Positions 1,304 through 64,000 of a stretch of DNA of 64,000 bases are shown here, one piece after another. The position numbers were made by a program, and so were the translations under genes. Every line of letters begins with the position of its first letter. Position 1 is the stretch's first letter. Source of the DNA: Brachybacterium endophyticum (lineage in GTDB: Bacteria; Actinomycetota; Actinomycetes; Actinomycetales; Dermabacteraceae); contig NZ_QFKX01000006.1 of NCBI RefSeq assembly GCF_003130585.1, positions 1 through 64,000 on the forward strand. The letters run 5' to 3'. The notes below the pieces were generated by a model, which ran no database searches, was not told where the DNA came from, and worked only from the letters and a program-made list of their open reading frames with translations.

Positions 1304-2160
1304 CGACCGCGGCGAAGGGGACCGCCCCGCCCGCCGCCGGGATCACCGTGCTGATGCCCGTCTGGCGCGGGGACCGGGCGGACAGGTTCGCCGCGGCCCT
1401 GGCCTCGGCGACCACTGCCCAGACCCTCGCCCCCGCCGAGCTGGTGCTGACCGTCGACGGGGAGCTGACCGCCGAGCTCGACGAGGTCGTCGCGAGCGTC
1501 GAGGCGGGGGAGTACGGCCCCGCGCGCGTGCTGCGCGCCGCCGAGCACCAGGGCCTCGCCCGCACCCTGCAGCGGGGGCTCGAGGCGGCCCGCACCGATC
1601 TGATCGCGCGCGCCGACGCCGACGACCTCTGCCGCCCCGAGCGTCTGCAGGTGCAGGAGACGGCGATGCGGGAGGGGCAGCTGGATCTGCTGAGCGCGAG
1701 CCTGCAGGAGTTCTCCGACGAGGTCCCGGTGGGCACCGGTCCGCTGCGCACGCGTCCGCTCACCCACGAGCAGATCCTCCGCTACCTGCCACGTCACAGC
1801 CCCTTCCAGCACCCGGCCGTGATGATGCGCCGCGATGTCGCCCTGGCCGTGGGCGGCTACCGCGAGCTGGACCACCTCGAGGACTACTGGCTGTGGGAAC
1901 GGATGCTGCTGGGCGGCGCCCGCAGCGCGAACCTTCCCGCCGTGCTCGTCGACTACCGGGTGGACTCTCGACTGTTCGCGCGCCGGGGAGGGGCGCGCAT
2001 GTTCGGGTCGGACCTCCGCCTGCAGTGGATCCTCCTGCGCGACCGCGTGACCACGCCCCAGGGAGCCGCCGCCAACCTCGTGCGCCGCGCCGCGTACCGC
2101 TTCGCCCCCGGCTGGATGCGACGCCTGGGCTACCGGTTCCTGGTCGAGAGGATGCAGTGA
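1300..2160 (+). CDS. Family-2 glycosyltransferase
   Basis: A 286-residue GT2 enzyme with the N-terminal strand ITVLMPVWRGD and an ADADD metal-binding motif near residues 104-110. The YxxxDHLEDYWLW segment (about 185-200) is the acceptor/catalytic-base region typical of capsular GT2 enzymes of the AmsE/WcaA kind. It starts with ATG inside the stop codon of the GlfT1-like gene (ATGA overlap), so the two are translationally coupled. There is no membrane segment, only a basic C-terminus, which suggests loose membrane association. Its sugar and acceptor are unknown; position suggests it decorates or extends the same galactofuran-containing polymer. Confidence 0.8.
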   Translation: MTTAAKGTAPPAAGITVLMPVWRGDRADRFAAALASATTAQTLAPAELVLTVDGELTAELDEVVASVEAGEYGPARVLRAAEHQGLARTLQRGLEAARTDLIARADADDLCRPERLQVQETAMREGQLDLLSASLQEFSDEVPVGTGPLRTRPLTHEQILRYLPRHSPFQHPAVMMRRDVALAVGGYRELDHLEDYWLWERMLLGGARSANLPAVLVDYRVDSRLFARRGGARMFGSDLRLQWILLRDRVTTPQGAAANLVRRAAYRFAPGWMRRLGYRFLVERMQ

Positions 2161-2288
2161 AGGCGTGACCTGCGCCGCATCGCGATCCAGCGGTGGTGAA
2201 CGGACGGTGACACGGGATGGGCCCGCGGGTGACGGGTCCGTGAGCGAACGGTGGGATCTGCGGGCAAAGCCCTGATCAGCGCGCGAAA

Positions 2289-3517
<1,229 letters not shown>

Positions 3518-3559
3518 ACCGACCGCCGCGCGCCGATCGTGCGGCCAGGAGGATCCCCA

Positions 3560-51784: not shown

Positions 51785-52126
51785 ATGAGCGATCTCGACC
51801 AGTACGCGGCAGGGGAGCGGATCGAGCAGATCGTCTCGTCGGTCCTCATCGGCTACCGCCTCACGATCCGCGGTCCGCGCGTGGAGTCGATGCCCTGGCA
51901 CCGCGACCAGACGCTGCCTCGCTACTCGGTGCGGGTCGCTACGCCGGATGACTCCATTGTCTATACGGCACTCGTGTGGTCCGGCTGGGACGACGAGCTC
52001 GAGGAGCATCTGCGGCGGTGGCTGCTCGAGCGGATCCACCTCGAGGGCACGAAGCGCGGGCACGGCCGGCGTCCGGACCCGTGGTGGGTGAAGGTCTGGA
52101 AGGCGGCGAATCCCGGGCGGAGGTGA
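51785..52126 (+). CDS. Prophage hypothetical protein (113 aa)
   Basis: A 113-residue frame starting MSDLDQYAAGERIEQIVSSVLIG. It has a mixed alpha/beta look, with a Trp-rich second half (VWSGWDDELEEHLRRWLLERIHLEG) and a basic, Pro/Trp-rich tail. I do not recognise the family. It is the first of the plus-strand genes at the left end and is followed by a phage-type promoter. An AGGTCGAGAG ribosome site lies before ATG 51785. Confidence 0.6.
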   Translation: MSDLDQYAAGERIEQIVSSVLIGYRLTIRGPRVESMPWHRDQTLPRYSVRVATPDDSIVYTALVWSGWDDELEEHLRRWLLERIHLEGTKRGHGRRPDPWWVKVWKAANPGRR

Positions 52127-52151
52127 TGTACGCCGCCGGACTCCACTACAA

Positions 52152-52172
52152 ACATGATTGCTCATGTATACT
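52152..52172 (+). promoter_or_regulatory. Phage promoter with overlapping operator-like repeat
   Basis: TATACT (52167-52172) preceded by TG is an extended -10 box close to consensus. An inverted repeat ACATGA (52152-52157) TTGC TCATGT (52162-52167) overlaps its 5' edge. This is the arrangement expected of a repressor-controlled early phage promoter. Transcription would start near 52179 and run into the three small genes. Confidence 0.6.
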
Positions 52173-52185
52173 AAGAGGGTCGGAC

Positions 52186-52234
52186 GGGGGAGACCCCCGA
52201 AGACAGGAAAAGCCCCCCGGGTAGGCCGGGGGGC
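52186..52234. promoter_or_regulatory. Leader hairpins; minus-strand terminator
   Basis: Two G/C hairpins lie in the leader: GGGGG-AGA-CCCCC (52186-52198) and GCCCCCCGG (52212-52220) with CCGGGGGGC (52226-52234), loop GTAGG. On the minus strand the second is followed by TTTTCC (52206-52211), a textbook intrinsic terminator that would stop leftward late transcription. On the plus strand the C and G runs of the two hairpins could pair with each other, so alternate folds are possible. Confidence 0.6.
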
Positions 52235-52255
52235 GGGATAGGAAGGAGGACGACG

Positions 52256-52363
52256 ATGATCCTGCAAATCATCGGAATCCTGGTCAGCCTTCCTGGAGCG
52301 ATCGTAGCACTCGTGACCATCGGCCACCTGCTACGGCCCCGAGAGGGGAAGCACAGGAAGTAA
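52256..52363 (+). CDS. Small prophage membrane peptide (35 aa)
   Basis: ATG 52256 follows GGAAGGAGG at ideal spacing and opens a 35-codon frame. The product is one hydrophobic helix (MILQIIGILVSLPGAIVALV) followed by a basic tail ending in EGKHRK. Such peptides are common in phage early regions, but no function is known. The strong ribosome site makes translation likely. Confidence 0.55.
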   Translation: MILQIIGILVSLPGAIVALVTIGHLLRPREGKHRK

Positions 52364-52425
52364 CTGACCGGCCCCGGGGGCGACCCCGGGGCGCTTCCTC
52401 CCCCTCGCACGAGAGGAGCCCCATC

Positions 52426-52587
52426 ATGAACACTCGCACCCCCATCGCCCTTGCCGCAGTCGGCACCACCGCCCTGCTCGCCCTCGCGCCCCTCGCCCAC
52501 GCGCCCATCTGGGCCACCGCGACCCTCGGCGTGTTCGTCGGCTTGGAGGTGACCGCTCTGTGGATGCTCAGCAAGAGGAACGCATGA
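52426..52587 (+). CDS. Small prophage membrane protein (53 aa)
   Basis: ATG 52426 has GAGAGGAG upstream. The 53-residue product has an N-terminal hydrophobic helix (PIALAAVGTTALLALAPLA) and a second (ATLGVFVGLEVTALWML), joined by a short Ala/Pro/Trp loop and ending in KRNA. Its stop codon overlaps the ATG of the next gene (ATGA). Function unknown. Confidence 0.55.
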   Translation: MNTRTPIALAAVGTTALLALAPLAHAPIWATATLGVFVGLEVTALWMLSKRNA

Positions 52588-52778
52588 CGATCCACTACCT
52601 CGCCCGCGCCGACGTAGCCGAGCGGATCGGCGTGAAGCCCGCGACGCTCTCCCGCTACAAGCTGCCCACCCCGGACGCGATCACCGGCACGCGCCACAAC
52701 GCGGCACGTGGCTGGCTGCCCGAGACGATCGACCGTTGGAACGCCCAGCGACCCGGTCGAGGTCGCCGCGCCGACTGA
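52584..52778 (+). CDS. Small HTH DNA-binding protein (AlpA/Xis-like)
   Basis: A 64-residue protein that is almost only a MerR-type HTH: IHYLARADVAERIGVKPATLSRYKLPTPDA, then a wing with GWLPETIDRW. This matches AlpA-like regulators or excisionases of actinophages. ATG 52584 overlaps the upstream stop; an in-frame ATG at 52560 lies inside that gene. Position near the left end would suit an excisionase, which is inference. Confidence 0.7.
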   Translation: MTIHYLARADVAERIGVKPATLSRYKLPTPDAITGTRHNAARGWLPETIDRWNAQRPGRGRRAD

Positions 52779-52793
52779 ACCTGGATGCACGAA

Positions 52794-52825
52794 AGTGCCC
52801 CACCTCCCGTAGGAGATGGGGCGCT
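52794..52825. terminator. Hairpin H1 after the HTH gene
   Basis: Arms at 52795-52807 (GTGCCCCACCTCC) and 52812-52824 (GGAGATGGGGCGC) pair over 13 positions with one C-A mismatch and a G-T wobble; loop CGTA. It follows the HTH stop by 16 nt and so could end the rightward transcript. On the minus strand it is followed by TTTC. Confidence 0.6.
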
Positions 52826-52831
52826 GGGGAA

Positions 52832-52886
52832 AGCGGAGGGAGAGGCGGCGTCGTCACCCCCAAGACCGTGAGCGCCGCCCCTCCGC
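52832..52886. repeat. Hairpin with bulge between H1 and H2
   Basis: AGCGGAGG (about 52832-52839) and GGCGGCG (about 52844-52850) pair with CGCCGCC and CCTCCGCT (about 52872-52886), leaving a GAGA bulge and a 22-nt loop. It shares no sequence with H1, H2, H4 or H5. Confidence 0.45.
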
Positions 52887-52907
52887 TGTCAGTCTCCCAC
52901 GACGTGC

Positions 52908-52944
52908 GAGACGCCCTCATCTCCGGAGGAGATGGGGGCGTCTC
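52908..52944. repeat. Hairpin H2 (17-bp stem)
   Basis: GAGACGCCCTCATCTCC (52908-52924) and GGAGATGGGGGCGTCTC (52928-52944) form a 17-bp stem with one T-G wobble and a GGA loop. It is the most regular member of the family and has no T-run on either side. Confidence 0.7.
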
Positions 52945-53047
52945 AGTGTGGAGCGATGATGCTCCGCGATGCGGTGACCTCCCAGGGCCGTGTGTCTGGG
53001 CTGCCATCGCCTGGAAGAGTACGCCGGCTCACGAGGTATCGCTAGGT

Positions 53048-53086
53048 GCCCTCGCCCGCCAGCCACCACTGGAGGCGGGCGAGGGC
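53048..53086. repeat. Hairpin H3 (13-bp stem)
   Basis: GCCCTCGCCCGCC (53048-53060) and GGCGGGCGAGGGC (53074-53086) are a perfect 13-bp inverted repeat around a 13-nt loop. Its sequence is distinct from the H1/H2/H4/H5 family. Confidence 0.7.
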
Positions 53087-53213
53087 CGCGGCGAGGCTGT
53101 GCTCCTCAGACCGGAGAGAAGGAAGAGACGCCTACGAACCGCACCGGCACGGTATAGGGCGGGAGGTTCCCCGTGCGCGCCACGCTCAACCAATGAGCGC
53201 TCAGGCGCAAGAA

Positions 53214-53251
53214 AGCGCCCCCACCCCCCAAAGACGGGAGATGGGGGCGTT
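53214..53251 (-). terminator. Hairpin H4
   Basis: The arm 53214-53229 pairs with 53236-53251 with two C-A mismatches and a 6-nt loop (AAAGAC). On the minus strand the stem is followed by TTTCTT. It shares the GCCCCCA/GATGGGGGC core with H1 and H2. Confidence 0.55.
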
Positions 53252-53359
53252 CTCTGTGTCACTCCAGCGGAGTCCTCCCGGGTTTCAGTCAGGAGAAGCC
53301 GCCACGAATCAGCGTACGCCGCGACTGATCTGTATGGGACCAATCGGGACAACTTGCGG

Positions 53360-53398
53360 AAAGTGCCCTCATCTCGAGGAAGGAGGTGAGGGCACTTT
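53360..53398. terminator. Hairpin H5, terminator of the late operon
   Basis: AAAGTGCCCTCA (53360-53371) and TGAGGGCACTTT (53387-53398) are a perfect 12-bp repeat extended inward by four more pairs. It has TTT on both strands, lies 77 bp beyond the last leftward gene, and so is the likely first terminator of the late operon; it can also work rightward. Confidence 0.6.
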
Positions 53399-53474
53399 GA
53401 GCGGAGCGACGACCCCGCTCGAGGCGACCAGCCCCTACCGGAGCCCCCGATGGCCGCCCTAGGGCCACGGTATG

Positions 53475-53597
53475 TCAGCGGTGGCGCTGCCGGGCGCGTT
53501 CAGCACGGTCGGCGTCCGCGTCCGAGAAAGCACACCGCTCTGCTGCCGCAGCAGATCCGTACTGGGCGCCGCACTCCTCGCACTGATAGTCAGCCAT
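53475..53597 (-). CDS. Small zinc-finger-like prophage protein (40 aa)
   Basis: A 40-residue frame, MADYQCEECGAQYGSAAAAE then RCAFSD and a basic tail of Arg, Ala and Asp ending in RQRHR. The C-x2-C at residues 6-9 and the later Cys near 22 suggest a small zinc ribbon. The ATG at 53597 overlaps the end of the holin-like gene by 8 bp, so it is probably translated by coupling. It is the last gene of the late operon and is too short for usual gene finders. Confidence 0.6.
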   Translation of the reverse strand: MADYQCEECGAQYGSAAAAERCAFSDADADRAERARQRHR

Positions 53598-53994
53598 CGT
53601 CGCCTGCCCGATGCGTGTGGGCGCGAACCGCCTGATCGACCTGCCCGGCCTCGTCGGCGGTCAGTGCAGCCTCAGCGTCCGGGACACCCTCGAGGGCGCC
53701 GACGTCACGGACCTTGGTGCCGGTGGCGAGCTCGGATGCCTGCCCGGCCACGACCGTCGCGCCTCGGATGGACTCGACGACGTTGGAGTTCGCCGTGACC
53801 TTCGTGCGGGAGATGAGCCCGGCAACGATGGGGCCGGCGGCAGCGACGACACCGATGATCGCGGCCTCGAGGCCCTCGGGAAGATTCACGCCGAGGACGA
53901 CGACGAGGGCGATGACCGCGGAGATGACCGCGGACAGGCTGCCGATGGTGACAGCGGGCTCGGATCGGACGACAGGAGTGCGGGTGCCAGTCAT
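53590..53994 (-). CDS. Holin-like membrane protein
   Basis: A 134-residue protein with two hydrophobic helices (about 19-36 and 43-60, separated by VNLPEGL) and a charged, Glu/Asp/Ala-rich C-terminus. Short, two-helix proteins next to an endolysin are typical phage holins that permeabilise the membrane at lysis. AAGGAG precedes ATG 53994, which overlaps the upstream stop. No family was identified with certainty. Confidence 0.65.
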   Translation of the reverse strand: MTGTRTPVVRSEPAVTIGSLSAVISAVIALVVVLGVNLPEGLEAAIIGVVAAAGPIVAGLISRTKVTANSNVVESIRGATVVAGQASELATGTKVRDVGALEGVPDAEAALTADEAGQVDQAVRAHTHRAGDDG

Positions 53995-54314
53995 GACTTC
54001 TCCTTGAGGGATGGGACGTTGTCGTGGATGTACTCCAGGACGAGGGTGTGCGCGGGCGGCGGGACGCGCTGCAGCCGCTCGATGACGCCGACGAGGGTGC
54101 GACGGTAGGTCCGGTTCTCCGTAGTGACCACCTCGATTTTTTCGTCCATCGCCGCGATCTTGATGTCCTGCCGCTCGACCGCGGACTTCCAGTAGCTGGC
54201 TGCCTGGGCGAGGTCGGTGCCCTGGTTCGTAGACCGGGTCGCCTTCAACCCGATCCAGGCGCCGCCGATCGTGACGGCGGCGGAGACGATGATGCCGATG
54301 ATGGTGGAGTCCAT
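53991..54314 (-). CDS. Membrane protein with coiled coil (DUF2746/holin-like)
   Basis: A 107-residue protein with one N-terminal helix (TIIGIIVSAAVTIGGAWIGL) followed by a charged helical segment (SYWKSAVERQDIKIAAMDEK then TENRTYRRTL). This single-pass plus coiled-coil design is frequent in actinophage lysis cassettes (DUF2746-like) and resembles second holins or antiholins. It overlaps the upstream membrane protein region and the holin-like gene by 4 bp on the downstream side. Confidence 0.55.
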   Translation of the reverse strand: MDSTIIGIIVSAAVTIGGAWIGLKATRSTNQGTDLAQAASYWKSAVERQDIKIAAMDEKIEVVTTENRTYRRTLVGVIERLQRVPPPAHTLVLEYIHDNVPSLKEKS

Positions 54315-54803
54315 TCAGTCATCACCCCACGCCTCGGAGATCTCCTCCGATTCCAAGTGCAGTCGCGCCACGCAATAGGCCATCGAGAAGGCGACGTAAG
54401 ACGCGGCCGTGATCCAGCCGCGCTGGGAGCCACCGTCGACGGGCAGCAGGGCGTACACCCACGACACGGTGAAGTAGAGCGCCGTGATCGCGGGAGTGGC
54501 GATCAACCCGAACCAAGCCACCTTGTGCAGCGCCAGGGCCCGGGTGCGAGAGGCGACGGCGGCCCACAGTCCGGCCAGCATCCACACGCCGCCAATCATC
54601 CAGGGCTGGATCAGGTCCATCCACTCGATACCCGCGGCTCGCCCAGCGGAGGGCTGCACGATCCACGAAAGACCGATCAGGGCGATCGCCAGCCCCTTGC
54701 CGCCCATGTAGCGCAACGCCCAGGTGCGGTTGCGGGCCAGGACGTGGCCGATGACTCCGACGGGGGACTCGATGGAGCCCGTGTCGGTGACCTCGCGGCT
54801 CAC
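54315..54803 (-). CDS. Prophage four-helix membrane protein
   Basis: A 162-residue integral membrane protein with hydrophobic helices at about 37-54, 68-92, 100-122 and 130-150, and an acidic tail (SEEISEAWGDD). GTG 54803 lies in the stop codon of the endolysin gene (GTGA). Position directly after the endolysin makes a lysis or superinfection role plausible, but no family is recognised. Confidence 0.6.
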   Translation of the reverse strand: MSREVTDTGSIESPVGVIGHVLARNRTWALRYMGGKGLAIALIGLSWIVQPSAGRAAGIEWMDLIQPWMIGGVWMLAGLWAAVASRTRALALHKVAWFGLIATPAITALYFTVSWVYALLPVDGGSQRGWITAASYVAFSMAYCVARLHLESEEISEAWGDD

Positions 54804-56461
54804 GCCAACCACGCCGCGAAGAACGTCGTCGGGCCGATCTTCCCGTCCACGGTGAGGCCGGCCTTCGCCTGCAGGGTGCGGGCGGCCTTGTCGGTGCCGG
54901 GGCCGAAGCGGCCGTCGGCGGTGATGCCGACCTTCTTCTGCCAGGCCTTGAGGCCGTGCGCGCCGGAGGACTTCCCGGATCCGAAGATCTCCCCGGGCAC
55001 GAGGGAGTTCGCGGATTTGCCGGAGACGGCCTCGAGCTTCGACTCGTCGCCGTAGTAACACTTGTGCTCCGACGTTCGCAGGAGCGGGAAGTCAGGCAGA
55101 TCCTTGAGCTTCATCAGTAGCGCCTTCCCCTCGGGCAGCGTGACCGAGGACGTGGGAGTGGTGACGGGCTTGCCGGTGACAGCGGCGGGCGCGCCGCCGG
55201 CGAGGTCGAGCAGCCGGGCGACGGGGAACGCGCCGGGGTCCCAGTGCGAGTTGGCCACGACGTGCGTGTGTCCGCAGACACCCGTGTACGCCGCCCACTG
55301 CGAGGCAGACATGCGCTGCGGAGCGGTCGTGTAGGCGGCGTTCGTGGTCGGCCAGGAGAGACCATCCGCGGTCAGCGGGATGCCGTGTGCGGCGGAGATC
55401 CACGCGAGCACGGAGGCGAGTCCAGCGAGGTCCTGATCCTGGGCGTCCTCGGTGAAGAACAACCCGTTCTTCACGGCGTAGGCGCGGTCGCAGGAGCCGA
55501 TGAACTCGATCTGGATGCAACCACCGTTGTTCGTCTCCGGCGTCCCGGCAGGATGCTCGAGCGCCTTCGCCGACTTGGTCGTCTCGATGTGCTGGCGCAC
55601 GGTGCCATCGCGGTGAACGGTGAAGTGAGGTGCAGATCCACCGCCCCCGTAGGTGGGCCACGAGCCGCCCTCGGTGGTGTGCAGGACGATCTTCGTGACC
55701 GGTGCCTTGTGGGAGTTGCCCGTCCAGGTCTGCGAGCGGTCCGCGCCGGGCATCCATCCGGGCGTGGCCGACGCGACGACGGTGGCGGGCTTCGCGGTCG
55801 TCGTTGCCCCGGCAGTGGTCACTGCCGGGGCGTCACCTTTTCCCGCCAGCAGCTTCTTCTTCGTGGCTGGACCGATTTTCCCGTCCACCGTCAGCCCGTG
55901 CGCCTTCTGGAACGCCTTGATCTTCGCGACGGTTCCCGTGCCGATCTTCCCGTCAGCCGTGACACCGAGGGCTTTCTGCACGTCGTAGTGATTCAGGCGG
56001 CCCTCGGACGTGTACTGGTCCTTCGAGGCGATGTAGCGGAAGTGCCAGTTCTCGCCCACGCGGCGGCCCTCGTCCCAGGACCACCCGAACCGGAGGCCGT
56101 TGGTCTTGATCCACGCCTGGATGGCAGCGGGGTGAATGTCGACGGCGAGACCGTCTTCATGGTTCGACCCGAGATCGGGGGACGCGACGGAGACCCCGCC
56201 GGCCTTTCGCTTCCAGATCCGCCCCTGATAGGAGCGGTCGGTGGACAGGGTGCGGCCGCGGCCTGCGGGCGTGTAGTTCGCCGTGAACAGGGCAACTTGA
56301 TCAGCGTGGGTGCGCAGCGCCGACCAGATCGAGAAGTTCGCCCCGGTCTCGGCAACGGCGCGCGGCAGCATCCGGGTCAGCGAGTCGAATGCGTCCTTGC
56401 GGAGCCGTTCGACCTTCTTCTTGTTCGACCACGAGGCGGGCATTTTGCTGTAGGTGACCAC
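54800..56461 (-). CDS. Modular endolysin: M15 peptidase, amidase, two peptidoglycan-binding domains
   Basis: A 553-residue lysin with four modules. Residues ~1-145 are an M15/VanY-type D-Ala-D-Ala or L-Ala-D-Glu peptidase with zinc ligands His101, Asp108 (SNHEDGLAVDIH) and His140 (ENWHF). Residues ~160-210 are a peptidoglycan-binding domain (VTADGKIGTGTVAKIKAFQK). After a Thr/Ala linker, ~250-415 is an amidase_2 domain with zinc ligands His261 (IVLHTT) and His406 plus Asp408 (SHWDPG). Residues ~465-553 are a second binding domain. It can cut both the stem peptide and the glycan-peptide bond. GTG 56461 has AAAGGA upstream. Confidence 0.9.
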   Translation of the reverse strand: MVTYSKMPASWSNKKKVERLRKDAFDSLTRMLPRAVAETGANFSIWSALRTHADQVALFTANYTPAGRGRTLSTDRSYQGRIWKRKAGGVSVASPDLGSNHEDGLAVDIHPAAIQAWIKTNGLRFGWSWDEGRRVGENWHFRYIASKDQYTSEGRLNHYDVQKALGVTADGKIGTGTVAKIKAFQKAHGLTVDGKIGPATKKKLLAGKGDAPAVTTAGATTTAKPATVVASATPGWMPGADRSQTWTGNSHKAPVTKIVLHTTEGGSWPTYGGGGSAPHFTVHRDGTVRQHIETTKSAKALEHPAGTPETNNGGCIQIEFIGSCDRAYAVKNGLFFTEDAQDQDLAGLASVLAWISAAHGIPLTADGLSWPTTNAAYTTAPQRMSASQWAAYTGVCGHTHVVANSHWDPGAFPVARLLDLAGGAPAAVTGKPVTTPTSSVTLPEGKALLMKLKDLPDFPLLRTSEHKCYYGDESKLEAVSGKSANSLVPGEIFGSGKSSGAHGLKAWQKKVGITADGRFGPGTDKAARTLQAKAGLTVDGKIGPTTFFAAWLA

Positions 56462-56490
56462 GACAGTCGTCCTTTCCGAGTGGGCATGAG

Positions 56491-56519
56491 AAAGACCCCT
56501 GCCGTGTGGCGAAGGGGCC
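56491..56519 (-). terminator. Terminator upstream of the endolysin gene
   Basis: On the minus strand the stem GGCCCCT/AGGGGTC encloses an inner GCC-ACAC-GGC helix and is followed by TTTCT (56489-56493). It lies between a small late gene and the endolysin start, so it could limit read-through into the lysis cassette until needed. Confidence 0.55.
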
Positions 56520-56538
56520 TTGGTGCTGCGGGGGTTGG

Positions 56539-56634
56539 TCAGGCGTCGATCTGGTCGTCCGTGATCCAGGGGTCGTCTTCGTCGACCTCGTATAGGTCTA
56601 CGCCGCCGTCGTGACGGTCCGTGGGGTCATTCAT
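56539..56634 (-). CDS. Small acidic prophage protein (31 aa)
   Basis: A 31-codon frame from ATG 56634 encodes MNDPTDRHDGGVDLYEVDED and a second acidic half with DDPWITDDQIDA. It is strongly acidic with no helix-forming hydrophobic part. The ATG overlaps the end of the upstream gene by 8 bp, so it is probably coupled. Function unknown. Confidence 0.45.
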   Translation of the reverse strand: MNDPTDRHDGGVDLYEVDEDDPWITDDQIDA

Positions 56635-56824
56635 CGGTGTCCTTGAGGGCTGTCTCCACGGTCTGCCGGACCGTCGAGTCGCTGATCCCGGCGTCCGTGG
56701 CGTCGTGGATCATCGCGGCGATCTGTTCCGGAAGGACGTTGCGGCGGGTGCGGCGCGAGGATTCCTCGTCCACATCTCGCTTGTGGGCATAGAACTCGTC
56801 ATCGCTGATGCTTGCGAGGTCCAT
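56627..56824 (-). CDS. Prophage hypothetical protein (65 aa)
   Basis: A 65-residue, charged and likely helical protein beginning MDLASISDDEFYAHKRDVDE and containing VLPEQIAAMIHDATDAGISD. Start ATG 56824 has GAAGGAG 5-6 nt upstream; a longer form from ATG 56890 lacks a clear site. Small proteins of this shape often precede lysis genes in actinophages. No family recognised. Confidence 0.55.
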   Translation of the reverse strand: MDLASISDDEFYAHKRDVDEESSRRTRRNVLPEQIAAMIHDATDAGISDSTVRQTVETALKDTDE

Positions 56825-57013
56825 CTGGGCTCCTTCGAAGGGTGGGCGTGGGCAGAACGTGTCAGGCTCTACGCAGTCGATAACGGACATGTCTCTTTTT
56901 GGCCCCGGAATGGTCACGATGCTCCGGAGCCAGCCCGCACCCGCGCCCGCCTGGCTATGTTCCGACAAGGAACGGGACTACCTGCGGGTAGATCGAAGGG
57001 GGCTTGAGGGCGC

Positions 57014-57166
57014 GTGCTTGACGTAGACACGGGTGAATACACCTGTGAGAAGTGCGAAGCTGTATGGCTGCCGCTTCCCGGACTCTTGAACCTCGGGCAT
57101 CAGTGCGGGACCGATGGCACGGTCGCCAAGTACGTGGTTCCCGAAGACACGCGGTCGGACCAATGA
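57014..57166 (+). CDS. Small zinc-ribbon protein of the plus-strand cassette (50 aa)
   Basis: GTG 57014 opens a 51-codon frame; the in-frame TGA at 57005-57007 excludes any earlier start. The product reads MLDVDTGEYTCEKCEAVWLP followed by a GHQCGTDG turn and a strand. C-x2-C at 11-14 plus His30 and Cys32 form a plausible zinc ribbon. Its stop overlaps the glycosyltransferase-like ATG (ATGA), which shows the two genes are a unit. Too short for routine calling but the overlap and cysteines support it. Confidence 0.6.
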   Translation: MLDVDTGEYTCEKCEAVWLPLPGLLNLGHQCGTDGTVAKYVVPEDTRSDQ

Positions 57167-58665
57167 CCGCGACCTCGGAAGAGCGCGCAGTCGAGATCGC
57201 GGCGCATGCTACGTCGATCGGTGCTGGTCGAGTGGTCTTCATGACGGGCGACGGGTTCGCGTTCAGCCCCATCACGCTCGAGGGGATGCTCGAAGTCCTC
57301 CAGGAGAAGGCGCCCCAGAAGTACAAGCTGCAGCGTGAGCTCGACGGCCGCTGGCGGGACGCCTCGAAGTACACGATGCTCGACTCGTCCGGCGAGGTCA
57401 TTGATGCCGTTCGAGCCGGGCACAGCACAGACCTCGACGGCATGCCGCTCGACGTGATCCGCCGCGCCGGCGAAGCCGAGCCGAACATGTTCCGCACCGC
57501 CCTCCGGACGCTTAACCGTGGCACCGCTGAACGGCTCTCCAAGCACTTCTCGGCCAGCTCTTTGTTGAACGCTCGCGACGTCGCGCTCCGCGTCAACGAG
57601 GCCGTCGACACTCGCACCACTCGCTACCTCGCGGCGTCCCTTGACGCCGTGCATGGACTGACCCAGTTCCCGATCGAAGAGCTCCTCACTGGGACAGCCA
57701 CGACTGCGCTCGGGGTCATGAGCGAACGCGTCGGAAGCGTTCCCGACCTGTACGCGATGCCCGCCGCCGAAGCGGCCGTGGCCGCGCTACGGGGGAAGGT
57801 GCTCAGCGTCGTGTCCCGCGAGGACGCCTCACGGGAGTTCGCCAAGGCCCGAGAGGGAGCCGACGCGATCAAAGCCCTGTACGTCGACATGGGGGCACTC
57901 ACTTACTTCGACACTCCGGACATCGACAACAACGCCGAGCAGCTCGCCGACACGATCCGTCGGAGCGTCTTCGCCGCCGACCCCGGCGGATTACGGAACC
58001 ACACGGCCGTCGCCATGTCCGTCGACGCGAACTACCTCCGCATCTACGCGCCGATCCTCATGCACTACGCCCAGCAGATGCCCGACGTCGACCACAACAT
58101 CATCCTGTGCGGCGACTCCGGCGACACTGTAGAGGAGCTGCAGGCGTTCCGCACCGCGCTTGCCGTGATGAATCGATCGGGCGCACCGGACAACGTCCGC
58201 ATCTACGAGGTACCAGTCCCGGCCGAAGTCGTGGAGCCGCGCACGTTCTACGCGTGCGCCCGGTTCTTCGCGATCGACGCGCTGCTCGAGCAATACCCGA
58301 GCGTCTACGTGATGGACATCGACCTCACGACAAACGAAGACCCGCGCTCATACTTCCGGAGCCTCACCCACGTTCCGTTCGCTGTTCCCACGAGTCGGGG
58401 ATTCGACGCCCTCTCGCCGTGGCGGCGATACATGGCGGGGAACCTGGCCGTGAACCGTGACGCGCTCGAGACGAACATCGTCAGCGACGTGCAGAGCTAC
58501 CTCGCGCATGGGCTGACCCAGCCGAACAGCTGGATGCTGGACCAGAACGCGCTCACGTACACGATCGAGCGCAACCCGGAGGCGTTCATGCCACTGGACC
58601 CGTTCCTTCGCCCATTCACCCAGCCGCGTTTCCGTACCGTGTGGGAGAAAGCCTTCCGGGCCTAG
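57163..58665 (+). CDS. Prophage-encoded GT-A-like protein (accessory moron gene)
   Basis: A 500-residue protein on the opposite strand to all neighbouring late genes. The N-terminal ~240 residues are helical with no recognised motif. The C-terminal half resembles a GT-A nucleotide-sugar transferase: HTAVAMSVDANYLRIYAPIL near residues 270-290, ARFFAIDALLEQYPSVYVMD near 365-384, and DIDLTTN near 384-390 as a DxD metal site. It could modify host surface glycans, a common role for such phage genes, but substrate and activity are unknown. ATG 57163 is coupled to the zinc-ribbon gene. Confidence 0.6.
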   Translation: MTATSEERAVEIAAHATSIGAGRVVFMTGDGFAFSPITLEGMLEVLQEKAPQKYKLQRELDGRWRDASKYTMLDSSGEVIDAVRAGHSTDLDGMPLDVIRRAGEAEPNMFRTALRTLNRGTAERLSKHFSASSLLNARDVALRVNEAVDTRTTRYLAASLDAVHGLTQFPIEELLTGTATTALGVMSERVGSVPDLYAMPAAEAAVAALRGKVLSVVSREDASREFAKAREGADAIKALYVDMGALTYFDTPDIDNNAEQLADTIRRSVFAADPGGLRNHTAVAMSVDANYLRIYAPILMHYAQQMPDVDHNIILCGDSGDTVEELQAFRTALAVMNRSGAPDNVRIYEVPVPAEVVEPRTFYACARFFAIDALLEQYPSVYVMDIDLTTNEDPRSYFRSLTHVPFAVPTSRGFDALSPWRRYMAGNLAVNRDALETNIVSDVQSYLAHGLTQPNSWMLDQNALTYTIERNPEAFMPLDPFLRPFTQPRFRTVWEKAFRA

Positions 58666-58688
58666 CCGCCCCGTAACTCACGTTTCAT

Positions 58689-61091
58689 TCAGATCGCGGC
58701 GAGCAGTGGCTCGCCCTGGATGGTCAGGTTCGGTCCTCCGACCCGCGCGGTCATCTGCGTGATCGACCGGTCCCGCGGGAGAGTGAGGTTCAGGCGGTAC
58801 GTGCGAAGAATGCCGTCGCCGGGGACGTCGAACGTCCGCTCCGTCTTCCAGTTGCCCGGGTTGCCGAGCTGCTCCATGGACAGGGTGAGCGTGGTCGCCG
58901 TGTCTGCCTTCGCCTGGATCACGAGCTCGTGGGCCGCGCCCATCGCCCACCCGAACCGGGTGAACAGCAGCATTCCCTGAGACATGGTCGAGGCGTTGCC
59001 GTTGGAGACGGCCTGGTAGCCATCGCCTTCGCCGGTGCGGGTCCAGCCGGATCCGGACCAGGAGCCGCGCATAAGGATGTTCTCCCGGCGCCCGTGGTGG
59101 ATGTCGGCGAAGTTCCCGCCGCCCGCCGACATCACCATGATCCGTCCGGCGTCCCTCTCGGCCTTGAGCCACTCGCACACCCGGCGGAAGTCGTCGGTGG
59201 TCTGGTAGACGATGTGTCCGTTGGTGGTGGCCCACTCGCGCATCGCCGCATCCGTGGGGAAGTTCTGCACCTCGCCGGTCGCCCCGGACGGGGTCACGGT
59301 GCGGGAGCCGTCCTGCCCGTACGTCACGGACCAGGCCTGGGTGCCCACGAGGATGGTGTCGAGCAGGCCGGGGTGGAGGTAGATCGTCAGTCCTCGGTTG
59401 ACCTGCTGGGCGAACTGGACCGTGCTGATCGTCTGGTCGCTGGACTGCCGGTCGATTGAGAAGTGGGACTGGCCGATCTGCGGCTCACCGGTCAGCGGGG
59501 GATAGAACCCGCCGATCTTGCCCTCCACGATGGCGTGCTCGCCCATGACGAGCCGGCCCGCGTAAGACTCTGTGAACGCCTCCAGGGACCGGCCGAGATC
59601 CAGGCCCTCGTCGCCGTCGATGTCGGAGGCGATCAGGTAGGCGGAGCCGTGTTCCTGCCAGGTCTCCACTGCCACGCGCGGCATGGCCTTCTCGAGGTTG
59701 CGGCGCCCGTCGACGATCTCGTGGTAGATCGCGGCCTGCGTGTTCACGTTCGTGTGCGTGGACCCGTGGTTGGCGATCTCGATGCCGTCGTACTGGTTCC
59801 ACGCCTGCACGTGCTCCCACGTGATCGAGCCGCCGCCGTTCTGCTCATTGCCCAGGTTGTCGTAGTTGACGTTCAGGGTGCCCACGAGGGAGTTGTCCTG
59901 CAGGGCGGGCAGGCACTTGTCGCGGAACGCCACCAGCCAGTGATCGAAGCGGATCATGACCACAGGGACGCCGTTGGTGCCGATGCCGCCACCGCGCCGC
60001 GCCCGCGCGTACTCCACGCGGGCGGCGTGGTCGGAGGTCTGCACGTCCGCCTGGACAGCGCGGCCAGAGTTGGCCGTGCCGCCCCCGCCGCCTGCAGCCG
60101 CGGGCTCGTTCAGCAGGTCCCACTCGATGCCGGTCCAGCCGCCCGTCGAGAGGGAGTAGCGATGCCAGACGCGAATGTCGTCGTTGGCGACGCGCTCGGT
60201 GAACCGCTGCATCGACAGGGAGAACCCCTGGTTCGTGACGACCTCGAGCAGGCCGAGCCCACTACCGGGAAGACCGGAGATGTTGGAGCGAGTCGTGATC
60301 GCCCATGCTCCCGGCGTCCGGTAGGTGTCGATGTTCACCGGGGCGTCAGCGGTCCCAGCGATCTTGCCCTTGATCCATTCCGGAGACGACCACGGCCCCC
60401 ACGACGTGTTCAGCGCCGACAGCGTCGCCCGGTCATAGATCTCCGCGGGGGCGGTCGCAGACACCATCGCGACGACCCGCTGCGACGTCATCGCCGAACC
60501 GTCGTTGGACCACACCTCGATGGTGGCTGCCCGCTTCGTGGGGAAGTTCAGCAGGGTGCCGGCGACGGCGACGGTCGGCACCGAGTAGATGCCGGGCTCG
60601 CGCAGAGTGTTCACGTCCGTACCGGAGGCGACGACGCCCCGGAAGACCGGGCTTGCCTCCTCATCGTCGTCGGTGTCCTGGCCGCCCAGGGGAATGTCGC
60701 GCCACTGGTCCCAGGTCCCGTAGTAGTTGCGGGTGGACCAGCGCGCGTTTGCGTTCGGGTCGAACGTGACATACCGCTGGGTGACCTGGGTGCCCAGGGT
60801 GTTGGCGGTGACGATCAGGTGCCCTGCCCGCGGGTAGGGGTAGCCCTGCGCGGTGGTCGCGTAGTTGGCGTAGGACTGCCAGTACACGCCCGGGGTCTTC
60901 ATCTGATCGAGGTGGCGGGTGCCGATCTCCTCGGCCTTCCATCCGCCAGCACCCATGCCGGCCAGCAGCACCGCCAGCTGCGCATCGACCGACGCGCCGA
61001 GGGCGCGGGTCTCCGCCACACCGGTGACGCTGATCGTTTCGCCGCCGTCCGCATTGGGCACCACGACACCGTTGGGCAGGGTCTCGGCCAT
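58689..61091 (-). CDS. Tail receptor-binding protein with knob repeats and NodB deacetylase-like domain
   Basis: An 800-residue tail protein. Three repeats of a pyocin-knob-like unit (pattern PGxY...xLxVxxxxxxxQxhxxxxxxxxWxxW) fill about residues 60-335. A NodB/carbohydrate-esterase-4-like domain follows (about 370-650): VVMIRFDHW near 377-385, the metal motif NHGSTHTN near 438-445, and YLHPG near 571-575. The C-terminal ~150 residues are a beta-rich binding domain. It probably binds and deacetylates a surface polysaccharide or peptidoglycan during infection. GGAGGAC precedes ATG 61091. Confidence 0.8.
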   Translation of the reverse strand: MAETLPNGVVVPNADGGETISVTGVAETRALGASVDAQLAVLLAGMGAGGWKAEEIGTRHLDQMKTPGVYWQSYANYATTAQGYPYPRAGHLIVTANTLGTQVTQRYVTFDPNANARWSTRNYYGTWDQWRDIPLGGQDTDDDEEASPVFRGVVASGTDVNTLREPGIYSVPTVAVAGTLLNFPTKRAATIEVWSNDGSAMTSQRVVAMVSATAPAEIYDRATLSALNTSWGPWSSPEWIKGKIAGTADAPVNIDTYRTPGAWAITTRSNISGLPGSGLGLLEVVTNQGFSLSMQRFTERVANDDIRVWHRYSLSTGGWTGIEWDLLNEPAAAGGGGGTANSGRAVQADVQTSDHAARVEYARARRGGGIGTNGVPVVMIRFDHWLVAFRDKCLPALQDNSLVGTLNVNYDNLGNEQNGGGSITWEHVQAWNQYDGIEIANHGSTHTNVNTQAAIYHEIVDGRRNLEKAMPRVAVETWQEHGSAYLIASDIDGDEGLDLGRSLEAFTESYAGRLVMGEHAIVEGKIGGFYPPLTGEPQIGQSHFSIDRQSSDQTISTVQFAQQVNRGLTIYLHPGLLDTILVGTQAWSVTYGQDGSRTVTPSGATGEVQNFPTDAAMREWATTNGHIVYQTTDDFRRVCEWLKAERDAGRIMVMSAGGGNFADIHHGRRENILMRGSWSGSGWTRTGEGDGYQAVSNGNASTMSQGMLLFTRFGWAMGAAHELVIQAKADTATTLTLSMEQLGNPGNWKTERTFDVPGDGILRTYRLNLTLPRDRSITQMTARVGGPNLTIQGEPLLAAI

Positions 61092-61092
61092 G

Positions 61093-63366
61093 TCAGTCCT
61101 CCGCTCCGAGGGGATCCGCTCCCCACTGGTTCCAGGTGCCGCCCTGGTCGGCGGCCCATTGCTTCCACGTGTCCGGCCGGACCGTGCTGGCCCACTCCGC
61201 CCACGTGGCGCCGCCATTGCGGGACACCGCCGTGGGCCGGAAGCGGATGGTGTGCGTCATGTCCAGACCGCTACCGCTGGTGGAGATCGACCGCGAGTCG
61301 GCGTAGATGACGCCCTGATAGGTCAGTCGTGAGATCAGGGGGTCGCTGATGGTGATCTTGTCGCCCAACTGCAGGCCGGGCGCGGGGACGATGCTGACGT
61401 CGGACAGCTCCGGGGAAGGCGTGGTGACGACGCCGGCAAGACGGTCCGCGAGGTTCTGTGCCTCGTCCTCGTACTGGATCCACCGGCCGACATCGACCGT
61501 CATCTCCTGCGTGCCCGCCGGGCCCGACTGGGTGGATGTGGTCGCCGCGTCGTTGAGGATGTACTTCATCCGGCCCCGGAGGATCGGCAGGTTGAACGAG
61601 CGGCGGATTCTCCACAGGGCGGATTCGGCCTCGGAGTCCAGGGTGCGGGCGACCACCGTCGCCGTGCCGTTCCATGTGGTGGTGGTCTTGAAGGCGGCGT
61701 CGGTGATTTTTTGGATGGTGAACCCGAGGACTCCGGCGGTCGAGGACCAGTAGTCCGGGGTGTCGCCCTCGCCGGGCACGACGCCACCGAAGAACGACCC
61801 GATCGCGTGATTGAAGTCGAACGAGTAGCCGACGGAGCCGGCGCGCGTGAACGCCAGGTCCGGCATCAGCCACACTTCGTTGTCCGGGGCGGTGATGAAG
61901 TCCTCGAGGGTGTCGCCGGGGGAGATCGTCTCCCCGTTGCCCTGCCACAGGTCGATCCGTTCCTTGAAGGACACAGACAGGGCAGTCGTCTTCCATTTCA
62001 CGACGACACGGGAGTAGACCGACGCGAGACTGTTCGACCACTTCATCGCCGTGACGTGGTCCGCGGTCGTGAGGGTCGCGACGGATCCGCGGGCGGCGAG
62101 CCGGTCGAGGTCCCACCATTGCAGGACCCCGGTCTCATCGATCCAGTAGGTCGCATACTCTGCTGTCGCGAGCTGCTCGAGCATGTCCGCGCAGTTCTCA
62201 CCCTCCGCCGGCGGAAGCACCTGCAGACGGTTGGGGATCCCGGCGCGGGCATGGATGACCGCTGACGGGCGCCACCCCTGGATGCTGAACGGCACGGAGG
62301 GGAAGGACACCTGAAACGCGCCGATCCGGCCCTCGCCGTACACGGAGACGGTCTCCAGGTTGCTGGTCATGACGCCGTCGGTCAGCGCCGTCTCGCCGGT
62401 GCCCGACGTGGTGCCCCGGTTGGTGCGGATCTCCACGACGACACGGCCCGCAGCGCGGCGGGTGACCCGCGCGGTGATCGCCTCGTCCGTCCCGATCGCG
62501 GTGCGGGAGAGCGTGACCACGTTCGCGAATGATCCGACGGGCTGCTCGACGGACACGAACACCTGGACGTCCGACCAGACCAGCTGGACGCGGCGACCGG
62601 CGAACCAGCACACGATGCGGGCGGTGCCCGAGTCCGGCGGGAGCATGGTGGTGATCTCGAGGCCGTTGTCGGAGATGGCCCGTTGCGCGATCGGCGTGTA
62701 GGTCAGCGTCGCGTCTCTGGCCTGCATCCCCCAGGGGGACGTGATCCAGCCCGGCGCGGCCCCCGGGACGGACAGGCGTTCCGCACGGTCCAGCTTCCCG
62801 GCCTCCGGCCACGCCGACCCCTGCATGGGGGCAGACACAATCGTGCCCGGGATCCGGTAGGGCGTCGCGTACCAGCCGCAATGCCGGAAGATCCGGTCCA
62901 CCACCGACACGCCGAACAGGCCCGGGTTCCGCCAGTAGCCACCGTCTCCCTCGGCGACCATGCGGGAGGCCATCGCGTCCCACGAGATCGACTGGTCCAA
63001 CGACCGGTACAGGTCTGTGAAGCCGACGGTGACGTCGCGAGAGGAAAGAGCCCCGGAGGCGTCCGCGACGCGACCCTGGGGCAGGACTGGCACGGGGCCG
63101 ACACCTGCGTTCAGCGACAGGGAAACCGTGTCTTCGGGGGAGGGGACACCCGGTGTGGGGGCCCACGGCGTGGACACCTGTGAGACGACGTCCGCGCCCG
63201 GCGTGTAGGTGACCTCGCCGGAGGCTGCTGTGAACGACCCGCCGCCGGGGAGCCCGTCGGCGTACTCGCGGTCGATGGACACTGCTGACGGGTCGACCGT
63301 TCTGCCGCCGAGGGTCGTGGTGACGCTTCCGCGGAGGGTGTGGCCGGAGGGGAGTCCTCGCTGCAT
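61093..63366 (-). CDS. Minor tail protein with C-terminal TWxxW repeats
   Basis: A 757-residue protein. The middle (about 300-650) has the look of a tail-tip/gp27-like protein (SVYSRVVVKWKTTALSVSF, AESALWRIRRSFNLPILRGR). The last ~40 residues contain TWAEW, TWKQW and TWNQW spaced by 12-15 residues. The ORF stop abuts the receptor-binding protein start, so the two are coupled. It is probably part of the baseplate or tail tip. Family membership is not proven from sequence alone. Confidence 0.7.
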   Translation of the reverse strand: MQRGLPSGHTLRGSVTTTLGGRTVDPSAVSIDREYADGLPGGGSFTAASGEVTYTPGADVVSQVSTPWAPTPGVPSPEDTVSLSLNAGVGPVPVLPQGRVADASGALSSRDVTVGFTDLYRSLDQSISWDAMASRMVAEGDGGYWRNPGLFGVSVVDRIFRHCGWYATPYRIPGTIVSAPMQGSAWPEAGKLDRAERLSVPGAAPGWITSPWGMQARDATLTYTPIAQRAISDNGLEITTMLPPDSGTARIVCWFAGRRVQLVWSDVQVFVSVEQPVGSFANVVTLSRTAIGTDEAITARVTRRAAGRVVVEIRTNRGTTSGTGETALTDGVMTSNLETVSVYGEGRIGAFQVSFPSVPFSIQGWRPSAVIHARAGIPNRLQVLPPAEGENCADMLEQLATAEYATYWIDETGVLQWWDLDRLAARGSVATLTTADHVTAMKWSNSLASVYSRVVVKWKTTALSVSFKERIDLWQGNGETISPGDTLEDFITAPDNEVWLMPDLAFTRAGSVGYSFDFNHAIGSFFGGVVPGEGDTPDYWSSTAGVLGFTIQKITDAAFKTTTTWNGTATVVARTLDSEAESALWRIRRSFNLPILRGRMKYILNDAATTSTQSGPAGTQEMTVDVGRWIQYEDEAQNLADRLAGVVTTPSPELSDVSIVPAPGLQLGDKITISDPLISRLTYQGVIYADSRSISTSGSGLDMTHTIRFRPTAVSRNGGATWAEWASTVRPDTWKQWAADQGGTWNQWGADPLGAED

Positions 63367-64000
63367 TCAGCCCACCTCCGTGACGGTCGCGTTGATCGAG
63401 CCGTATGCCCCGTTCTGGTCGAAGCCCGTGAGGTCCTCGCTGAGGTCGGAGACGATCGCCTGCGGGCAGCCCTTCCCGGGGCCAGAGGTGACGGTGCTGC
63501 CCCAGCGGACAGCGGGACGGGCGTACTGGGCGCCGGCGGAGACGGCGAGGGAGAGGTAGGCGGCCCCCGCGGGGGGTGTGAGAGTGGTGTGGGCCCACTG
63601 CCACCCAGTGAAGGTCTGGGTGGGGGTGGACCATGAGGACACGGATGCAAGGTTGATGTCTCGCCAGAAACCGGTGAAGCGGGTTCCGTTCAGTCCCCAG
63701 GCGCCGACGGTGACGTTCTCGCCGGGGCGCACGGGGACACCTTCGAACGTGCCGTGCGCGTCACCGATGGTGATGGTGCCTGTTCCGGTGTGGATGATGC
63801 TCTGTGCGACGTCACCGTCGGGGAGTGCGACGAGCCCCGCGGGAGCGGCGTTACTGGGCACGCTCTCGAAGGAGACGGCCTGCGGGGACAGCATGTTCCC
63901 GCCGAGCGCGTCTGCCGGATACCACAGGACGCTGCTGCTGATGCGTGCGACCTCGATGAGACCGGCGATTTCCCGAGAGCTGACCGGGTTGAAGGAGACC
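63367..64000 (-). CDS. Tail protein, C-terminal part (N-terminus outside window)
   Basis: A minus-strand frame that is open from the window edge and ends at 63367, one base from the next gene. At least 210 residues are visible. The sequence is beta-rich and Gly/Thr-rich (VPVRPGENVTVGAWGLNGTR, PAGAAYLSLAVSAGAQYARP), the pattern of carbohydrate-binding domains in tail or distal-tail proteins. The ATG at 63894 is internal. Function is inferred from position only. Confidence 0.65.
   Translation of the reverse strand, partial: VSFNPVSSREIAGLIEVARISSSVLWYPADALGGNMLSPQAVSFESVPSNAAPAGLVALPDGDVAQSIIHTGTGTITIGDAHGTFEGVPVRPGENVTVGAWGLNGTRFTGFWRDINLASVSSWSTPTQTFTGWQWAHTTLTPPAGAAYLSLAVSAGAQYARPAVRWGSTVTSGPGKGCPQAIVSDLSEDLTGFDQNGAYGSINATVTEVG

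Follow-up and report, generated by a model that had tools for sequence, protein, structure and literature searches.

An opposite-strand gene pair between the tail and lysis genes of a Brachybacterium prophage as a candidate receptor-converting cassette

In a prophage of the high-GC actinobacterium Brachybacterium endophyticum, two coupled genes occupy the slot that separates the last tail gene from the lysis genes and are read in the direction opposite to both. We analyzed them within a 64-kb stretch of DNA (hereafter, the window), which forms the beginning of a 209,883-bp contig, and our best reading is that they form a lysogenic-conversion (moron) cassette that probably remodels the polysaccharide receptor of the host. 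This reading is favored because an independent phage, the metagenomic contig L038, holds a homolog of the second gene, and because the cellular relatives of that gene mostly reside in polysaccharide loci. That the second gene encodes a GT-A-type sugar-nucleotide transferase, the other family members of which lie mainly in surface-polysaccharide loci, is well supported; its expression in the lysogen, its polysaccharide substrate, the receptor change, and the exclusion of other phages are steps that we infer.

Both genes are on the forward strand, and the ATG of the second (57163) lies inside the stop codon of the first, forming an ATGA overlap. A ribosome-binding-like AAGGGGG (56996-57002) stands 11 nt before the GTG of the first. 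The pair and its borders are as follows:

57014..57166, forward strand: gene 1, a small CxxC...HxC protein of 50 residues (P0002), a probable zinc ribbon, with its GTG start at 57014
57044-57055 and 57095-57106, forward strand: ligand pattern of gene 1
57163..58665, forward strand: gene 2, a glycosyltransferase-like protein of 500 residues (P0001), with its ATG at 57163
56825..57013, no strand: divergent intergenic region, the expected site of the promoter of the pair
58666..58688, no strand: 23-bp convergent junction between the pair and the stop codon of the tail gene, without a terminator-like site

The flanking late genes all run on the reverse strand:

58689..61091, reverse strand: tail protein of 800 residues, a probable receptor-binding protein (phrog_11373 tail protein, E 1.6e-70, in a search that used a longer start at 61217; the gene start is taken as 61091)
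59361..59993, reverse strand: polysaccharide-deacetylase-like domain of the tail protein, residues 367-577 (PF01522, E 2.5e-5, 24.7 bits against a cut-off of 23.1)
56627..56824, reverse strand: small late gene of 65 residues, divergent from the pair (weak phrog_7100 match, E 6.1e-4)
54800..56461, reverse strand: endolysin (VanY, Amidase_2, peptidoglycan-binding)

An earlier note, based on the letters of this DNA, had described the pair as an independent opposite-strand unit in a late region; open reading frames and gene calls bear this out, together with its coordinates, its strands, its convergence with the tail gene over 23 bp, and its divergence from the gene at 56824. The surrounding element is recognizable as a prophage from its tape-measure protein (phrog_305, E 7.3e-147), its integrase (phrog_95, E 3.4e-91), and tail proteins identified by PHROGs-type matches. 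IMG/VR stores it as a 43,244-bp viral genome, the left end of which falls at ~51.8 kb by coordinate matching, and the GC fraction is 0.727 in the first 50 kb versus 0.675 in 51785-64000. As expected of a moron, the pair lies within a prophage that has an integrase and a tape measure, is independent of the late operon by strand, and is absent from the same site in related phages. PMC7067206 describes a position antisense to lytic genes as characteristic of moron loci.

The same slot was compared across eight tail/lysis junctions, namely, the window and the seven strongest endolysin relatives in the host family (L040, L041, L042, L043, L044, L046, and L047). By our gene caller, an opposite-strand gene occupies three of them (the window, G012, and G004) and is lacking at five, and none of the seven other junctions carries gene 2. 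Specifically, the G012 junction holds a 68-residue orphan on the opposite strand, and that of the G004 prophage (L043:6039-6979) a GDSL/SGNH hydrolase (Pfam E 1e-12), preceded by a small open reading frame that reads as a membrane protein. Further afield, the tail gene of Arthrobacter phage MooKitty is followed by the endolysin gene after 14 bp, and the annotation of neither MooKitty nor Arthrobacter phage Correa shows an opposite-strand gene next to the tail gene. Among viral contigs, one other relative of P0001 was found, in L038, at 45% identity over residues 204-499. Its gene has the same slot and orientation and shares 4 bp with the convergent tail gene; the tail fragment on that contig is only weakly similar to the tail protein of the window (30% over 57 residues, E 0.001). 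Viral scans with the homolog from Zobellella iuensis gave no relative, those with the L038 protein its own contig only, and a second, alignment-based scan the two known loci only.

At the sequence level, P0001 belongs to a small family that stands apart from current profiles. It had no credible match in Pfam (best E 0.42) or PHROGs (best E 0.24), nothing in NCBIfam at E <= 0.5, no match among phage or plasmid records at E <= 0.01, and chance matches alone among PDB sequences (best E 0.074 and 0.083); neither P0001 nor P0002 matched any PADLOC anti-phage defense model at E <= 0.1. Homologs of gene 2 in five other genomes share 27-43% identity over most of the length. Relatives were found in three other genomes of the 47 in the host family (G026, 41%; G028, 43%; G008, 35%), in two genomes of a 396-genome sample of the order (G292, 36%; G288, 30% over the C-terminal part), and in Zobellella iuensis (27%). 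Two weak matches, G217 (E 8.4e-4) and G223 (E 4.8e-4; loci L011/L018 and L010/L017), were set aside as chance, being partial, confined to the N-terminal half, and placed in unrelated neighborhoods, one with an internal stop.

Aligning eight members, including P0001 and the L038 protein, revealed 30 invariant residues, 27 of which fall in the C-terminal half. The features of gene 2 that emerge are as follows:

57163..57402, forward strand: N-terminal region, residues 1-80, in six of the eight aligned members; a known fold was not found
58018..58035, forward strand: motif SVDANY, residues 286-291, aligning with VDANYL of Escherichia coli WaaJ
58309..58326, forward strand: DxD motif VMDIDL, with D385 and D387 invariant in all eight
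58429..58455, forward strand: motif YMAGNLAVN, with A425 and G426 invariant in all eight
58531..58554, forward strand: motif WMLDQNAL, with W457, D460, Q461, N462, and A463 invariant in all eight

The N-terminal half, which the earlier note had called unrecognized, indeed matches no known fold that we could find, yet it is part of the family, and only in G028 and L038 did its initial ~80 residues go undetected (by alignment, and by a profile from the other six with which the loci were searched). Comparison of this region with a neighboring Zobellella protein was suggestive only (E 0.017 pairwise, 0.064 by profile).

The C-terminal half is predicted to be a GT-A, GT8-like domain outside PF01501, an assignment that is well supported and carries a real margin of doubt. 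We use the label "GT-A-like" because of structure comparison and motifs, not because of a profile match. Specifically, when a low-confidence model of this half was compared with the PDB by Foldseek, glycosyltransferases made up 41 of the top 50 rows (best E 9.6e-4, TM score ~0.35), among them LH3, glycogenin, LgtC, an A. prevotii GT8, LARGE1, and UGGT; the other nine were not glycosyltransferases (e.g., TtuA/NcsA). Against viral models, three of 50 rows were named family 8 and many more just glycosyltransferase. Profile comparison by hhalign with a four-member GT8 set gave E 2.7e-4 over 140 collinear columns and a score of 34.8, versus 25.9 for the reversed control and at most 20.7 in 30 shuffles, a best value that is partly chosen, three GT8 sets having been tried in succession; a two-member set scored 26.4, versus 19.6 reversed and 18.3 shuffled. 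The likeness to GT8 extends to the order of motifs, judged by eye (VDANY, DxD, AG, DQN), and to the frequency of GT8 among the top structural matches; LgtC, glycogenin, and WaaJ/WaaO are members of CAZy GT8 and PF01501. Unlike GT8 proteins, P0001 has no PF01501 match and carries an extra N-terminal half of ~250 residues; a C-terminal His motif was not seen at the position judged equivalent by eye. PF01501 gave no match at E <= 1 for P0001 and six cellular relatives or at E <= 0.1 for the L038 protein, and it was not found in 19 relatives or in 14 of the 119 genomes of the order.

The cellular relatives of P0001 lie in surface-polysaccharide loci in five of six cases, one of these judged by eye. 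GT4 and heparinase II/III genes lie near the gene in G026, G028, and G292, as identified by profile or protein search; in G008, a GT4 gene is directly beside it and a heparinase gene ~7 kb off. By eye, a uridine diphosphate (UDP)-sugar dehydrogenase is near the gene in G028, G008, and G292, and the Zobellella neighbors look alike, with GT4 and heparinase II/III genes. The host genome has such a locus as well, on contig C10. Its GT4 shares 72% identity with the G028 protein, and the locus also encodes a UDP-sugar dehydrogenase, a fusion of GT4 with heparinase, and a further heparinase-like protein below the cut-off. Beside the GT4, where G008 has its glycosyltransferase gene, this locus holds an unrelated orphan of 523 residues (L076:11439-13010), for which comparison with the family was negative; the prophage copy is the sole copy of the glycosyltransferase gene in the genome. 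The orphan itself has no Pfam match at E <= 0.01, and its start resembles that of a G020 protein (L081:5138-6706). In the window, positions 338-5722 hold host genes of galactofuran type: two GT2, a UDP-galactopyranose mutase, and a GlfT2-like transferase.

Beyond the pair itself, our results revealed links to the adjoining tail protein and to the host polysaccharide locus that the earlier note had overlooked. The deacetylase-like domain of the tail protein is 29% identical to the deacetylase-like protein of the host locus over 214 residues (E 6e-21) and 29% identical to that of the G028 locus over 215 residues. Scanning viral contigs with this domain returned four, the window's own included. 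One of them, phage L091, encodes a protein related to the tail protein (32% identity across 456 aligned columns that span the domain) and, convergent with it at 52 bp, a D-glucuronyl C5-epimerase domain gene (L091:5229-6584; PF06662, E 1.2e-20); the other two, L092 and L093, have no convergent glycan-enzyme gene beside the deacetylase-domain gene. A convergent glycan enzyme is therefore present in two of the four contigs, or three of five with L038, counts that are small, have no matched random control, and, for the latter, include a contig that came to light by way of the enzyme and was not drawn independently.

The zinc-ribbon gene points to the same kind of locus. Among the 47 genomes, P0002 has two credible homologs outside the window, in G018 (51% over 39 residues, E 2.9e-9) and G024 (E 0.0017, or 3.1e-7 with a two-sequence profile), and the four Cys/His ligands of two knuckles, CxxC...HxC, are kept in all three. 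Judged from these sequences, the family is real, and "predicted zinc ribbon" is probably a fair label for P0002, the Pfam zinc-ribbon scores of which were below cut-off (PF08271, 17.3 bits versus 29; PF17180, 14.2 versus 27). Its codon usage is poor (-0.18 per codon, versus at least 0.08 for the 25 shortest among 49 prophage genes that this score had itself served to pick). Matches in G035, G011, and a second in G000 (E 0.04-0.09) were rejected as chance, that of G035 lying, by eye, among ribosomal-protein-like genes; phage records gave chance matches (E 4-5), and the viral scan gave the window's own record only. In G018 and G024, the ribbon gene converges on a deacetylase-like gene across a gap of 42 and 49 bp, respectively; the former lies inside a polysaccharide locus, and none was seen in the 3.1 kb read around the latter. 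All three ribbon genes thus point at a deacetylase-domain gene, with the glycosyltransferase gene lying between in the window, so it is that gene, and not the glycosyltransferase, that seems to be the partner of the ribbon. The pairing of ribbon and glycosyltransferase, which the earlier note had found unfamiliar, is accordingly not fixed: L038 has no ribbon gene (101 bp between genes), and those of G018 and G024 stand beside deacetylase-like genes. A profile found no ribbon homolog beside six other deacetylase-like genes, chromosomal or phage, among the loci compared (L013, L046, L076, L079, L080, and L081).

The occurrence of a deacetylase-like gene with a convergent ribbon gene in G018 and G024 would also suit a neutral passenger, that is, a piece of a chromosomal polysaccharide locus acquired together with the tail domain by recombination and having no selected function. 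The rarity of the glycosyltransferase family is in keeping with this, the sole match in a phylum sample of 396 genomes at E <= 1e-6 being the host's own. However, the frame is intact, the motifs are invariant, and the independent phage L038 has its 45% homolog in the same slot, and we hold a passenger to be improbable.

Several findings weigh against a receptor-modifying moron and temper the lysogenic-conversion reading. First, as to the enzyme, the full-length model of P0001 is poor (predicted local distance difference test [pLDDT], 42.8), and that of the C-terminal 250 residues is of low confidence (pLDDT 54.9; predicted template-modeling score, 0.60). VIA, another structure comparison, which has TarP among its rows, gave Z 5.5-6.5 to glycosyltransferases in the rows shown, values for which its own warning is that Z < 8 may reflect a common arrangement only. 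With a twelve-member GT8 set, the reversed control (34.0) exceeded the real profile (29.0). No Pfam glycosyltransferase family matches any of the eight members, for which DUF4174, TatD, and DUF707 appeared below threshold. In GT8, the usual C-terminal His, within an HxxGxxKPW motif, is a metal ligand; at the position that we judged equivalent by eye, where the profile alignment stops short, none of the eight members has His, seven having R/K-P and G288 V-P. The GT-A-like C terminus proposed in the earlier note is supported by the invariant DxD and the Foldseek matches.

Second, as to the setting, the G288 gene is an exception among the cellular relatives, as it lies behind an FtsX-like gene, with no polysaccharide locus. 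A 147-bp direct repeat with 96% identity (L016:8653-8799 and 10477-10623) brackets it and copies the 3' end of the FtsX-like gene, suggesting that a mobile piece was inserted. The deacetylase-like protein of the host locus matches PF01522 below the cut-off (E 0.0018). The domain is, moreover, widespread in Arthrobacter phage tails, the G018 locus protein being up to 45% identical to Arthrobacter phage minor tail proteins (37 records), and the link is partly generic; because the domain is common to phage tails and polysaccharide loci generally, it is weaker proof of a common substrate, yet it supports the general idea. Finally, the convergent pair of L091 lies, by eye, beyond the lysis genes, in a different slot, so the recurring element would be the pairing and not the slot.

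Third, as to expression, a consensus scan of 56400-58900 found no promoter-like and no terminator-like sites (shuffle means, 0.3 and 1.2), although the sigma-70 consensus may not fit this host. The moron proposal of the earlier note is strengthened by a slot that is empty or holds other genes in related phages and by the homolog in one other phage, while signals for separate expression did not appear. Comparison of the divergent intergenic regions of the window and other phages likewise gave no convincing common promoter; a 9-mer, GGCTATGTT, found upstream of the pair (window 56953-56961) and also ahead of the opposite-strand genes of the G004 prophage (L043), was within chance.

The lack of promoter-like sites for separate lysogenic expression, together with the position amid late genes and beside a tail gene, would be expected if the enzyme acted late in lytic growth, decorating virion proteins or phage DNA or keeping newly released virions from attaching to lysing cells. 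An enzyme that modifies virions should, however, be transcribed with the late genes, whereas this gene is on the strand opposite to the late operon and its relatives are mainly in cellular polysaccharide loci; we give such a role a low probability. Less probable still is antisense control, in which the transcript would continue beyond the 23-bp junction, enter the tail gene at its 3' end, and repress that gene, the proteins being secondary. The absence of terminator-like sites at the junction and the close convergence elsewhere (a 4-bp overlap in L038 and a 14-bp overlap in L043) are consistent with it, as is an antisense RNA at the tailspike gene of Salmonella BTP1, described in PMC7067206. 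Against it, the enzyme frames are intact, which speaks for a function at the protein level. Overlap between convergent genes is, moreover, often seen without known regulation.

At the ends of the prophage, a 13-bp repeat (51671 and 96328) was the longest attachment-site candidate in the stretches compared and is not trusted. Near the left end, a 40-residue open reading frame with a CxxC pair (53475-53597, reverse strand) possibly encodes a small zinc protein. Immediately beyond the right-hand end of the prophage in IMG/VR lies a SocA/Panacea-domain gene (L020:12023-12454, on contig C14 at ~96.0-96.5 kb; PF13274, E 2.6e-19), possibly an antitoxin-like accessory gene.

Under the lysogenic-conversion reading, the pair would be expressed in the lysogen, and the product of gene 2 would add an extra sugar to, or alter a linkage of, a uronate-type surface polysaccharide made by the chromosomal locus of the host. 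The adjoining tail protein, with its deacetylase-like domain related to a protein of that locus, would then fail to recognize the polysaccharide. The lysogen would thereby exclude the same and related phages, and phage progeny would avoid adsorption to debris. The zinc-ribbon protein would be a co-expressed accessory, perhaps, at a guess, a regulator or an enzyme helper.

The principle is known from other systems. The gtr O-antigen-modifying operons of P22-like Salmonella prophages such as BTP1 are highly expressed in the lysogen and inhibit superinfection (PMC7067206). These are prophage-borne glycan-modifying genes, as proposed here, but they include a flippase gene, and none was seen in the gene pair of the window. 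They act on Gram-negative O-antigen, and their slot and orientation differ from those of the pair. TarP, a glycosyltransferase of Staphylococcus aureus prophages, alters the phage receptor and, once lysogeny is established, blocks some podophages (PMC9650247). It is a Gram-positive prophage glycosyltransferase, as P0001 is predicted to be, and PDB searches with P0001 gave no sequence match to it; TarP glycosylates wall teichoic acid, whereas the relatives of P0001 are polysaccharide-locus proteins and P0001 is encoded beside a deacetylase-like tail protein. In Klebsiella prophages, SGNH-domain tail fibers are receptor-binding, capsule-modifying enzymes, as reported in PMC13123978. There, too, tail proteins of temperate phages carry capsule-modifying enzyme domains, but the fold is SGNH, in contrast to the deacetylase-like tail domain and convergent glycosyltransferase cassette described herein. 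Our literature searches, which were short of a full review, returned no account of an opposite-strand moron between tail and lysis genes and none of an actinobacterial prophage glycosyltransferase tied to heparinase/deacetylase exopolysaccharide genes; for prophage morons tied to receptor-binding tail fibers and glycan-modifying enzymes, they returned the Klebsiella study alone. By these searches and the family libraries, the enzyme family appears to be new, as does the way it is paired with the tail domain.

More tentatively, and as a possibility to which we give well under even odds, the pair may be one form of a mobile key-and-lock module, in which a deacetylase-like, receptor-recognizing tail domain and opposite-strand genes that rewrite the same polysaccharide move together between chromosomal polysaccharide loci and prophages. 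The rewriting enzyme would vary, being a glycosyltransferase here and, in L091, a uronate C5-epimerase, and the zinc ribbon could be present or absent. What takes the case beyond routine is that a single type of host locus holds relatives of the tail domain, the zinc ribbon, and the glycosyltransferase alike, that the enzyme family has no profile, and that a second phage carries the gene in the same slot. To our knowledge, the tested receptor-modifying morons concern Gram-negative O-antigen and staphylococcal teichoic acid; the pair offers a case open to testing in a Gram-positive host of high GC content, with an enzyme family to which Pfam, PHROGs, and NCBIfam gave no match. If the module exists, each temperate phage would carry a receptor key along with a way of changing the lock once inside, and whole-module exchange would shift receptor choice and superinfection exclusion in one step. 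The receptor-conversion reading, if it holds, would itself provide a simple rule for finding further genes of this kind, namely, to look for genes that converge on a receptor-binding tail gene.

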